Of a stretch of DNA of 27,179 nucleotides, positions 5,706 to 9,111 are shown in pieces (position 1 is the first letter of the stretch; each line of letters begins with the position of its first letter). The notes beneath the pieces were generated by a model that saw nothing but the letters and a program-made list of their open reading frames with translations, ran no database searches and had not been told where the DNA came from. Source of the stretch: a virus; the IMG/VR virus record IMGVR_UViG_3300020436_000071, positions 1-27,179 of that record, one strand, 5' to 3'. A program made the position numbers and the translations under genes.

Positions 5706-6049
5706 TACTTTTTGGCCTTTGTTTTTACCATTATTGGTTTCTTACCTTGACCTCTTGATTGAGAACCACCTCTACCAGCTTTATTTTGTGCCGCTCTCTT
5801 CCGTCTTGTTGCACTTGCCTTCTGTTTTTTCGACATACTTGCAGCTTTTTTAGCAGGTACACATTTTGCATATCCTCGTTTCTTACCACTTGTTCCACAA
5901 GGTGGGTGTTTACCACTCTTATCTTTCTTACCAATGTTTACCCATTTGTCTTTGAACCATTTTCTCAAATCTTCATTTGTTAGTTCACCACAATGAATAC
6001 ATATATTATCTTTTATTATTTCGAGAGCTAATTTAGTTTTTTTATTCAT
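5705..6049 (-). CDS. DUF5872-like basic protein
   Basis: A 114-residue, strongly basic protein. After an N-terminal helix with a CxxC (C17, C20), residues 31-69 read KWFKDKWVNIGKKDKSG, then PCG and KCVPAKKAA, which is the layout I associate with the DUF5872 domain of phages and large viruses. The C-terminal half is Lys/Arg/Gly/Gln-rich, likely disordered and nucleic-acid binding. The four cysteines (17, 20, 51, 63) could form a metal site. Start and stop both overlap neighbours by one base (TAATG). Role unknown; its neighbour at 4719-5705 shares the same chemistry, so they may act together in the virion or on DNA. Confidence 0.7.
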   Translation of the reverse strand: MNKKTKLALEIIKDNICIHCGELTNEDLRKWFKDKWVNIGKKDKSGKHPPCGTSGKKRGYAKCVPAKKAASMSKKQKASATRRKRAAQNKAGRGGSQSRGQGKKPIMVKTKAKK

Positions 6050-6423
6050 TAGAATACATCCTCTGCTAATACATCATCAATGGCACCTTTTATATCTTTA
6101 TTGTCAATATCCAACTCACCATCCATATCAGCCTTCCAAGTCTCTTTCTTAGAACCATCGTAGAATAGAGCTAATGATGGAAAGTTTCTGAACCGAAGTT
6201 TCTTGACAACCTTTGGTGCATCCTCACTTTTTACAGTAACTATTTCACAATCTTGATATCCCTTGACACCTTTTAGGATGTCCTTATCAAAGTCTTGTTC
6301 TTGCCATTCCGCTGTCACTACCACTACGACCATTCCACCATTTATTGTTTCTTTGAAATTCTTATCATTTACTTGACCTAAAGTAACAGAAAGAAGTAGT
6401 AACAATCCTAATAAGTATCTCAT
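6049..6423 (-). CDS. Exported thioredoxin-fold protein lacking the CxxC
   Basis: The 124-residue product begins with a clear signal peptide (MRYLLGLLLLLSVTLG, cleavage likely before Q17) and then a thioredoxin-like fold: a hydrophobic strand VVVVVTAEW (32-40), a helix, a strand EIVTVKSED, a helix KVVKKLRF, the cis-Pro loop NFPSLALFYDG (P82), and a terminal helix. Where thioredoxins have W-C-G-P-C it has W40-Q-E-Q-D, so both redox cysteines are gone; one Cys (C59) remains. It therefore cannot run normal disulfide exchange and more likely binds a protein in the periplasm. AGGAG precedes the start and overlaps the stop of the upstream gene. It is the last gene of the envelope cassette (6049-9111). 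Confidence 0.78.
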   Translation of the reverse strand: MRYLLGLLLLLSVTLGQVNDKNFKETINGGMVVVVVTAEWQEQDFDKDILKGVKGYQDCEIVTVKSEDAPKVVKKLRFRNFPSLALFYDGSKKETWKADMDGELDIDNKDIKGAIDDVLAEDVF

Positions 6424-6432
6424 AAATAACTC

Positions 6433-7110
6433 CTATTTATCTTTCTTTTTAGCAACTTCAACTCTAAGGTTGGATACTAACTTTTCTAAATCTTCTATTT
6501 TTTCTTCAAACTCCTCAATGTATTCATATACTTCGTCCATATCTTTTTGAAGACCACCGACCTGTGTTTTATATTGTTCGTATGAACGAGGCCAGTTATG
6601 ACCATCTGGTTTGGATGGATACTCATCACCAAATATGGATTCGATGGATGGTGGTTCAGGTAAGTTCTTTGCTTCTTCAATCTCTTGTAGTAACATATAG
6701 TAACCACCGACACCTGCCGCTATTACACTAACGAGTGCTATCAATGTTTGTATAGACATTGTAAATTTTGTACCCATAACTTTATCTTCAGAAAGTTCTA
6801 TTGGTTCTTCTTCCTTTGGTTCTTCTCTTACAGGTTCAGGTTTATTTGGTGGAAGTCCTGTAACCATTTCAGGTTGAATTGGTTCTTTATGAATCTCCTC
6901 GTGTTTGTCTTCGTGTTGTTTAGTATCTGTTGGAGAGTTCATCAAGGCATCTGTAATGTCATCAAACGAGCAAAATCCCATCTCAACAAGAATCTCACCA
7001 ATCGTTCCTTTACGACCTTTGACTTGTTCTTGTAAGGCTTTACTCAATTGTCTCTTTGTGATGATATCAGCATCACATAACAATTGTCCTAATTTGACAC
7101 CATCACTCAC
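6433..7110 (-). CDS. Membrane protein with GspE/MshEN-like N-terminal domain and coiled coil
   Basis: The start is GTG 7110, overlapping the upstream stop (TAGTG), with AGGAG nine bases before it. Residues 5-57 match the N-terminal domain of type II secretion/type IV pilus ATPases (T2SSE_N/MshEN): V-K-L-G-Q-L-L, then IITKRQLSKALQEQ, then G-T-I-G-E-I-L-V-E-M-G and a final helix. In MshEN domains paired RLGxxL motifs bind c-di-GMP; here the Arg is replaced by Lys6 and by Thr36, so binding is doubtful. A Pro/Glu-rich linker (60-110) follows, one membrane helix (about 118-141), then a C-terminal coiled coil (about 185-222). No ATPase domain is present. With the domain at the N-terminus before a single helix, it would probably lie in the cytoplasm and the coiled coil in the periplasm. 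It is part of the envelope cassette. Confidence 0.75.
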   Translation of the reverse strand: MSDGVKLGQLLCDADIITKRQLSKALQEQVKGRKGTIGEILVEMGFCSFDDITDALMNSPTDTKQHEDKHEEIHKEPIQPEMVTGLPPNKPEPVREEPKEEEPIELSEDKVMGTKFTMSIQTLIALVSVIAAGVGGYYMLLQEIEEAKNLPEPPSIESIFGDEYPSKPDGHNWPRSYEQYKTQVGGLQKDMDEVYEYIEEFEEKIEDLEKLVSNLRVEVAKKKDK

Positions 7111-7724
7111 TAATAAACTCCTTGATAAAAAGTAGCCTCAGGATCTGTACCTACTTCTAAGTTCTCGAAAATAATTATACCGTGTTGCATTTCATTTCTG
7201 TAAGGATTGAAGAAGTAACCATCTACCATACCATCAACAAGTCCATCCTCATACTTAGTGATTGCACCTTGACCAAATTCTGTAAAATCAGATAGACCAA
7301 CAATCTCTAATGTTACCCTACCACTTGTACTTTCAAGTAAATCAGGTCTAAGTGAATCAACCGCTGTTCCACCTATGTACAATTTTTCATCTATCAGTTG
7401 TCCATTATCTGCACCATCATTATCATACATAATCAAAGCGTAATGTTCTTTCTCAGGTGTAACTCTACCATCTTCCCTTTGGAAGTGTAATACAAATACT
7501 TTTTTTATAGAACCATCTTCTTGTACTGAGGATGCTCCATATGAGGTTATACTCTCGTAATATTCACGAGCTACAATCTCTGCACCATTTACCCACATCT
7601 CAATACTTTCGACTAATGGTTCTTCTACTTTGTCGTCCTCACAACTTGACATCAAAAACATTGTTGATAACAATATTGAGCCACAAATCGTTCTTACTAC
7701 ATTATATACTTCTTCGTGATTCAT
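7110..7724 (-). CDS. Phage-encoded lipoprotein of unknown function
   Basis: The 204-residue protein has a signal sequence (about 11-27) ending in a lipobox M-S-S-C, with Cys28 as the lipidation site, followed by E-D-D. Acidic residues right after the Cys are typical of Bacteroidota surface lipoproteins, whereas in Enterobacteria Asp at +2 gives inner-membrane retention; here +2 is Glu. The mature part is acidic, with predicted beta strands and no family I recognise. ATG 7724 has AGGAG seven bases upstream, overlapping the stop of the Cys-rich microprotein. Met22 or Met25 could not serve as start without losing the signal helix. Phage lipoproteins often block superinfection at the receptor, as in T5 Llp; this is a possibility only. 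Confidence 0.75.
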   Translation of the reverse strand: MNHEEVYNVVRTICGSILLSTMFLMSSCEDDKVEEPLVESIEMWVNGAEIVAREYYESITSYGASSVQEDGSIKKVFVLHFQREDGRVTPEKEHYALIMYDNDGADNGQLIDEKLYIGGTAVDSLRPDLLESTSGRVTLEIVGLSDFTEFGQGAITKYEDGLVDGMVDGYFFNPYRNEMQHGIIIFENLEVGTDPEATFYQGVY

Positions 7725-7733
7725 TTTTATCTC

Positions 7734-7805
7734 CTAACACTTACAACATTTGCAATTCATACATCCACCATTGCAAATACAGTCTTTACATCCACATTCG
7801 GACAT
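7734..7805 (-). CDS. Cys-rich 23-residue microprotein (metallothionein-like)
   Basis: A short frame between the outer-membrane protein and the lipoprotein encodes 23 residues, nine of them Cys: positions 4, 6, 9, 11, 15, 18, 20, 21 and 23, in C-x-C, C-x-x-C and C-C spacings, with Lys, Gly and Asn between. A strong AGGAG lies seven bases before ATG 7805, and its TAG overlaps the AGGAG used by the lipoprotein gene, so it sits exactly where a gene is expected in this tightly packed operon. The composition is that of a minimal metallothionein or other metal-cluster peptide; a reduced cytoplasmic location is likely since there is no signal peptide. Function is inference; the frame, ribosome binding site and cysteine count are read directly. 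Confidence 0.72.
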   Translation of the reverse strand: MSECGCKDCICNGGCMNCKCCKC

Positions 7806-7818
7806 CAGATTCTCCTAT

Positions 7819-9111
7819 TTACCAACCTACAAACTGATAGTTTATACCAAACTTCACATCATATGCTGGTCGTTCCCAATAATATAAATATCTACCCTCA
7901 GTAAATACTCCTAAGTTGTCTTTTAGTTTTACACCAAATATAGCACCAACATCATAATCATTCCAATCATGCCACATTGGCTCCATATACATAAATTTAT
8001 GAGCAGGTCTACCTTCTTCTAAGTGAGTTTGGTAATGAGCTGCATTATGGTATGCGTGTTTTGAATGACCATAATGAACAGGCATCCAATTACCCCAAGT
8101 ATGTATCCACCAATTCTCACCATAATGATAAAAATCAATACCTAATACTAAAGATGTCTCACTCTGATAACCCAAGTCTTTCTTTACACCATCTACATAT
8201 TCCTCTAACATACCAGGAAAATGATATAAGAAATATTCTCTATCGGTATATGCAAATATTCTACCATTCTCATCTCTCCACAACCAATCGTGTCCCCAAT
8301 ATTGTCCACCTTCATTCCAAAAAGGCCCATCACCTTCTATGAGTCTAAGTTCACCTGTTACAGGATCTACTTCATATAAATCTTGATGAATCCAATTTCC
8401 GTCTTCATCTTGCATTGTTGGGTCATACCACATATTATCATCGATACCAAAAGCATCTTCCGCAAAATTCCACCATTGTCCTTTATACCAAGTTGTATCC
8501 AATACCATAGCATCGAATCCATATACAGGATGTTGTCTGTGTTTAGCACCAATAGAAAAATGTAGTTTGTTTCCTAATACCTCAGGTGTTAGATGTAATC
8601 TAATATCACCTTGACCATAACTAATATCTTCAAGACCTAAATCTGTCCAACCAATTTTAGCCATTAGATATTGACCAATATATCTTACCCAAAACTCTTG
8701 GTTTTTATAATCATTACCCCATTGTCTACCCTCAGAAAATTTGATGAGATACTCCCATCCCTTTACAGGTCCGAATGTAGCACTTTCATTTGCATTTTGT
8801 TCTGAACCATCATACCAAGTTCCACCTTTACCAGCAGACTTTACACCTCTCTTTGGTTCGTATTGGAATCTACCAATCTTACGAAGACCGAATGATGTTT
8901 GAAAATCTGGTTTTAGTTCTCTTTCAGTTCTTTTTACCTCAAGTGCTCCTGTAGATAATCCACCTGTTATTGCAAATCTATCGTCTTGATATCGTGGTGC
9001 ATTTAAACTGAAACTACCATACGCAGTAGAGTATTTAAAAAACTTCCAAATTTCGTTTTCACCAAACAACAAGGAAGAAGTCAATAGTGTAATTAATAAA
9101 CCGTATTTCAT
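7819..9111 (-). CDS. Outer-membrane beta-barrel-like protein, 430 residues
   Basis: The product begins with a signal peptide (MKYGLLITLLTSSLLFG, cleavage near 17) and continues with alternating strands rich in Tyr, Trp and Gly, ending in KFGINYQFVGW, a terminal strand with aromatic ends as seen in outer-membrane barrels. Examples of barrel-type stretches are FGLRKIGRFQYE, LHFSIGAKHRQHPVYGF and TSLVLGIDFYHYGENWW. Residues about 215-300 are Asp/Trp-rich and may be a large surface loop. I recall similar sequences in uncultured marine phage contigs, without assigned function. It could alter the host surface, exclude other phages, or act as a porin; a virion role is less likely given the signal peptide. 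GGAG precedes ATG 9111. A hairpin lies just upstream, after the tail genes, so this may start a separately controlled cassette. Confidence 0.72.
   Translation of the reverse strand: MKYGLLITLLTSSLLFGENEIWKFFKYSTAYGSFSLNAPRYQDDRFAITGGLSTGALEVKRTERELKPDFQTSFGLRKIGRFQYEPKRGVKSAGKGGTWYDGSEQNANESATFGPVKGWEYLIKFSEGRQWGNDYKNQEFWVRYIGQYLMAKIGWTDLGLEDISYGQGDIRLHLTPEVLGNKLHFSIGAKHRQHPVYGFDAMVLDTTWYKGQWWNFAEDAFGIDDNMWYDPTMQDEDGNWIHQDLYEVDPVTGELRLIEGDGPFWNEGGQYWGHDWLWRDENGRIFAYTDREYFLYHFPGMLEEYVDGVKKDLGYQSETSLVLGIDFYHYGENWWIHTWGNWMPVHYGHSKHAYHNAAHYQTHLEEGRPAHKFMYMEPMWHDWNDYDVGAIFGVKLKDNLGVFTEGRYLYYWERPAYDVKFGINYQFVGW

Follow-up and report, generated by a model that had tools for sequence, protein, structure and literature searches.

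The junction between two genes of a viral operon holds a real gene for a 23-residue protein with nine cysteines, and the make-up of this protein suggests, with a probability of roughly 0.6, a cytoplasmic metal-thiolate microprotein that works like a minimal metallothionein in the buffering or scavenging of metal. The gene lies on the minus strand of the window, by which we mean the whole stretch of 27,179 nucleotides analysed here, and it belongs to a widespread, unannotated set of predicted phage proteins of 11–43 residues that are packed with cysteine. All evidence is sequence-based, and from it we infer metal binding, the choice of metal, the buffering role and the time and level of expression. 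The set offers a concrete, testable case of real coding genes of 11–23 codons in viral metagenomes, and points to a layer of phage genes, probably metal-binding, that stays hidden because gene callers do not go down to such lengths.

The microprotein gene and its neighbours

The original prediction described, without naming a strand, a frame of nine cysteines in 23 residues that starts seven bases after AGGAG and ends inside the ribosome binding site of the next gene. These features are all found on the minus strand (Table 1), and the translated plus strand of 7734–7805 contains no cysteine. The stop of the upstream gene lies at 7819 and the ATG of the next gene at 7724 on the minus strand. 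Cysteine makes up 39% of the peptide, in C-x-C, C-x-x-C and C-C spacing.

Table 1. Features of the microprotein operon in the window
Feature	Coordinates	Strand	Basis
Upstream gene: 430-aa exported beta-barrel-type (outer-membrane-like) protein, no Cys	7819..9111	minus	sequence; weak AlphaFold model
AGGAG of the microprotein, 6-nt spacer (ATG from the seventh base after AGGAG)	7816..7812	minus	sequence
Cys-rich microprotein gene, MSECGCKDCICNGGCMNCKCCKC (23 aa, 9 Cys), with stop	7805..7734	minus	translation; recurrence and controls
AGGAG of the next gene, overlapping the microprotein stop TAG (7736..7734)	7735..7731	minus	sequence
Downstream gene: 204-aa protein, lipoprotein-like start (MSSCEDD)	7110..7724	minus	no family match
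225-aa gene, next in operon; directly after the microprotein in some relatives	6433..7110	minus	
Exported thioredoxin-like protein, same operon	6049-6423	minus	Pfam Thioredoxin below cut-off

The barrel protein is 71–86% identical across 57 viral loci, yet neither cultured phages nor GTDB species genomes nor protein families gave a match. Its AlphaFold model is weak (mean pLDDT 59), with barrel strands and only generic porin-like fold matches, which gives the predicted fold roughly but does not settle the identity of the protein. None of the genes beside the microprotein was recognised as serving metal resistance or metal transport. In the 126-kb relative G015, a few kb from the barrel gene, a run of four genes (L104:10955-13020) includes at least three prepilin-like starts of the GFTLIELIMVMIILGILGAVAIP type. 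The 120-kb relative G012 encodes a tmRNA (L111:4945-5348; tag GDSQPSYAYAA) and a tRNA-Cys (L111:11196-11270) on the phage contig; the DNA of the tag has no match in GTDB species genomes and so gives no clue to the host.

Controls against a chance frame

Cysteine-dense ORFs, counted as frames of 12–60 aa with at least six cysteines and at least 33% cysteine, were sought in 424 kb of sequence from loci retrieved through the barrel-type neighbour. The coding strand held 27 of them, 23 with a Shine-Dalgarno core, and the opposite strand of the same 424 kb held four, none with such a core; ten Markov-1 simulations of both strands produced none. A looser scan of approximately 0.7 Mb of further contig pieces, three contigs of 120–130 kb included, found five with ATG and Shine-Dalgarno sequence besides that of the window. 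A chance open frame without function, for which only the shortness of the ORF speaks, has a practically negligible probability: it is excluded by the bias towards the coding strand and the Shine-Dalgarno sequence and by the empty simulations, and contradicted also by the recurrence of the ORFs at junctions and the synonymous-only variation of one phage group (group a, below). The microprotein ORF is thus confirmed as a real gene and, as had been proposed, a translationally coupled one, in keeping with its Shine-Dalgarno sequence, its strand and its placement at the junction.

Gain, loss and movement at the junction

The sample for comparing related junctions comprises 47 contigs with a complete barrel gene, the counts being taken from a list. 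A cysteine-rich ORF is present in 28 of them: in 21 it starts at most 13 nt after the barrel gene, in six it ends at most 64 nt before it, and in one it follows at a distance of 617 nt, with the lipoprotein gene in between. The other 19 have no cysteine-rich ORF in the available stretch, which for one of them extends only 75 nt downstream, and in ORF-less relatives the barrel stop can directly abut the lipoprotein start. Because the three states of the ORF require at least eight changes on the tree of barrel proteins, the ORF is a mobile cassette, gained, lost and moved repeatedly.

The nearest relative that differs carries MSECGCKNCNCNGGCMDCKCCKC, which, compared by eye, has three replacements, none at a cysteine, and one synonymous change in a cysteine codon. 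At the same junction other phages carry MKKCDCCNCCDCGCGC, MCNCNDCSCDKCLSGCTCTSCDC, MCECKNCKCNESCGCGNCNC or a 43-residue version with 17 cysteines. Stops or frameshifts in this frame beside intact flanking genes had been named as the observation that would speak against the gene; the intact junctions of relatives hold either an intact variant or a clean absence, with no stop or frameshift remnant seen. The two ends of the 120-kb contig G012 (L044 and L089) carry different barrel versions with different cysteine-rich ORFs, representing either two copies of the barrel gene or two mixed strains.

The suggested link to an exported-protein cassette stands for the window's clade, where the ORF lies no more than 64 nt before or after the outer-membrane-type gene in 27 of the 28 positive contigs; in another phage group (c) the ORF sits after a different exported gene. 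However, the exported cassette is not the defining partner, because other phages place the ORF beside tail-fibre-like, terminase or IscU genes. Metal delivery, redox buffering and protein binding, which the original prediction drew from this link, are candidate roles.

Constraint and residue composition

Group a was refetched through its neighbour protein, free of pattern bias. The peptide is identical in 12 contigs whose neighbour proteins are 82–100% identical, and the three DNA alleles among them differ only synonymously; a thirteenth contig has an extended start with the same core, and relatives with a 77%-identical neighbour cleanly lack the ORF. Twelve replacements separate the members of three close pairs in the window's clade (window/L002, L004/L010 and L005/L067), and all of them avoid cysteine, although it forms 39–50% of the residues; the chance of such avoidance is approximately 0.002, calculated by hand as a product of non-cysteine fractions with no mutation model. 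These comparisons show constraint on the cysteines and, in group a, on the whole peptide. Single cysteine losses are tolerated, as the L043 variant, with one cysteine replaced by tyrosine, indicates.

High cysteine content, polar and glycine spacers and almost no aromatic residues or histidine are the make-up of metallothioneins. In the barrel-anchored set, which was not selected by pattern, Asn, Asp, Gly, Glu or Lys occupy 160 of the 201 non-cysteine residues, and aromatics and histidine are as scarce as in metallothioneins (no Phe or Trp, three Tyr, one His). Length and cysteine spacing differ among the variants and cysteine density stays, as would be expected if the job of the peptide is to present thiolates. 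No signal sequence is visible, so that, in contrast to secreted peptides rich in disulfides, this one should remain in the reducing cytoplasm.

Distribution among phage groups

Two degenerate DNA scans of IMG/VR for Shine-Dalgarno sequence, ATG and cysteine spacing yielded 50 and 45 stretches, the majority ending as short cysteine-rich ORFs; as the scans were pattern-selected, the sizes of the resulting groups and the first few positions of the peptides are no evidence of conservation. L096, L181, L184, L187 and L211 were left out as starts of longer proteins, as was a group of 42/43 aa (L191, L194, L207, L220 and L221), and L196 is a doubtful pattern match. Approximately 46 distinct peptides of 11–43 aa and 33–62% cysteine are found in several unrelated phage groups, and roughly 100 contigs carry such peptides by a hand count with duplicates removed. 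Group a (MCKCCKCCTCTCPECN) comprises phages partly similar in DNA to T4-like cyanophages and to a marine single-cell virus. Group b (MCKCC[KDN]CK[DNE]CNC) is accompanied by a short stretch resembling pelagiphage tail fibres. In group c (MCECKQCECESCNCSCCEC and relatives), a further neighbour has a sub-threshold match to a type IX secretion sorting domain. In group d, MCKCKDCKCNPCRCK immediately precedes the terminase gene in T7-like phages, and a further group (MCGCENCKCESCECNCCDC) occurs in phages having late genes in common with the window's type. The five sequences of 42/43 aa form a separate family with a cysteine-rich start (MCECNSCKCGLIPTKALSDGVKEW...), in phages of higher G+C.

Searches of cultured phages by tblastn with the 23- and 43-aa peptides gave no match, a test weakened by low-complexity filtering. 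Regions of known phages near possible relatives were covered too, and no convincing comparable ORF was seen in those of HTVC120P, Jormungand, HTVC008M (first 50 kb), HTVC031P, CRP-171 and S-SSM7, or in those of Mel-JY01, immuto, AG-345-L05, C48C1 and two MedDCM phages. The gene psbA, a sign of a cyanobacterial host, was absent from 50 records.

Proposed function and alternatives

The closely spaced cysteine thiolates would wrap a cluster of soft metal ions such as Zn(II), Cu(I) or Cd(II), and nine cysteines would suit three divalent ions. The peptide would be translated from its own AGGAG within a small mobile cassette inside phage operons, and the likely benefit would be metal buffering or scavenging in the infected cell, with thiol redox as a secondary role. 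Both metallothioneins and the MSL2 CXC domain are known to hold clusters of three zinc ions and nine cysteines (Zn3Cys9; PMC3447885). Since the genes that follow the ORF span at least ten families, the peptide probably acts in trans. A wider and more tentative proposal, held at a little short of even odds, is that minimal metallothioneins, most of them 11–23 residues long, were acquired or evolved independently in several unrelated phage lineages as a mobile micro-cassette controlling metal in infected cells; if so, they would rank with the smallest known metal-binding genes and form a phage cargo that current annotation does not see. Should the peptides bind metal, they would amount to a metal-handling cargo of the phages themselves and would provide dozens of naturally occurring versions of a minimal metal-thiolate scaffold.

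The reading of the peptide as a miniature metallothionein or metal-cluster peptide, already made in the original prediction, fits the sequence anatomy, from which metal binding is predicted. Low mass and approximately 30% cysteine or more in CxC, CC and CxxC spacing are as typical of the window peptide as of the other peptides of the set. Single-cluster metallothioneins include the nine-cysteine beta domain of animal metallothionein and the copper metallothionein of Neurospora, of approximately 25 residues. They share with the microprotein the size of one cluster, the very high cysteine content, the C-x-C, C-x-x-C and C-C spacing, the polar and glycine spacers, the near absence of aromatics and histidine, and the cytoplasmic location; the microproteins differ in being phage-encoded, in reaching down to 11 residues, in lacking detectable homology and in that their metal binding is a prediction. 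Prokaryotic metallothioneins of the SmtA/BmtA type are, like the microprotein, cysteine-rich proteins of a metal-binding type in prokaryotes or their viruses, but they are roughly twice as long and have histidine ligands and a folded zinc-finger part, features that the microproteins do not show.

No metallothionein profile matched above the cut-off, the window peptide having no Pfam match, which is a weak test at 23 residues; Metallothio_Euk matched one relative only (E 0.49), PHROGs gave no match and a PDB search with the peptide matched no chain. The likeness to metallothioneins is one of kind rather than of proven descent. Other points against the minimal-metallothionein reading are the shortest variants, whose four to six cysteines are few for a closed cluster, the tolerated change in L043, the lack of detectable metallothionein-family homology, the lack of recognised metal-handling genes beside the ORF, and the close positioning of the ORF by the outer-membrane-type gene of the window's clade, which simple buffering would leave without explanation.

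That tight placement, which two phage groups show beside an exported or outer-membrane-type gene, is what a peptide shaped by metal merely to bind a host or phage protein, for example in the outer membrane assembly route or a host enzyme, would account for, and the exact conservation of the group a peptide, non-cysteine residues included, points the same way. Such partner binding is nonetheless unlikely, as the variants differ freely in their non-cysteine residues, length and spacing, which would not be expected of a conserved binding surface, and the neighbours differ among groups.

Equally unlikely is a dedicated iron-sulphur accessory that holds or passes on iron or a nascent cluster together with phage IscU, A-type carriers and radical-SAM enzymes. 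In L149 the next genes encode IscU (PF01592, 1.3e-37) and then an A-type carrier (PF01521, 1.3e-13), in L209 IscU is the next gene, in the T7-like group d it lies approximately 0.4–0.75 kb upstream of the microprotein, and group a genomes hold IscU, an A-type carrier and seven to nine radical-SAM genes; gene sets of this kind are known from ocean viruses (PMC5332604). These assembly genes are, like the microprotein, phage-borne and concerned with metal cofactors, and adjoin it in some phages, but their products are large folded scaffolds, unlike the microprotein. IscU and A-type carriers are absent from the tested records of the window's clade and of group c, contigs of 120–130 kb included, and the cysteine spacing is denser than is usual for iron-sulphur proteins; one 126-kb relative in the window's clade has three radical-SAM matches, two above the cut-off. 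A general metal-thiolate role is preferred to a specific iron-sulphur one because the tested records of the window's clade are without IscU.

A thiol redox buffer that exchanges disulfides and thiols instead of binding metal would make use of the many thiols per residue, and an exported thioredoxin-like protein is encoded further down the same operon; this protein has a single cysteine and hence no CxxC active site, no redox gene stands beside the ORF in the other groups inspected, and the idea is quite improbable. The same low rank falls to a cis-acting leader whose cysteine codons sense charged Cys-tRNA and tune the next gene, as the translation of polycysteine upstream ORFs does in mycobacteria. 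The stop of the microprotein overlaps or almost touches the start region of the next gene and one relative phage encodes a tRNA-Cys, but the ORF has no fixed place upstream of one gene family: the genes that follow it are of many families, and within the window's clade it can either precede or follow the same gene; it also reaches 43 codons with 17 cysteines, and its non-cysteine residues are restricted too. No regulatory RNA structure overlaps it, the fold of the window sequence being ordinary (z-score 0.04) and without an Rfam match, by which a structured-RNA explanation was likewise rejected.

Relation to earlier reports

No report of phage metallothioneins was found in the open-access papers searched; the 'metallothionein' of the Ab31 phage paper comes from the gene table of its bacterial genome section and is not a phage gene. 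The small-gene catalogue of Fremin et al. 2022, which reportedly covers predicted phage small-gene families, might list some of the ORFs. Its families, like the microproteins, are very small phage genes overlooked by ordinary gene callers.
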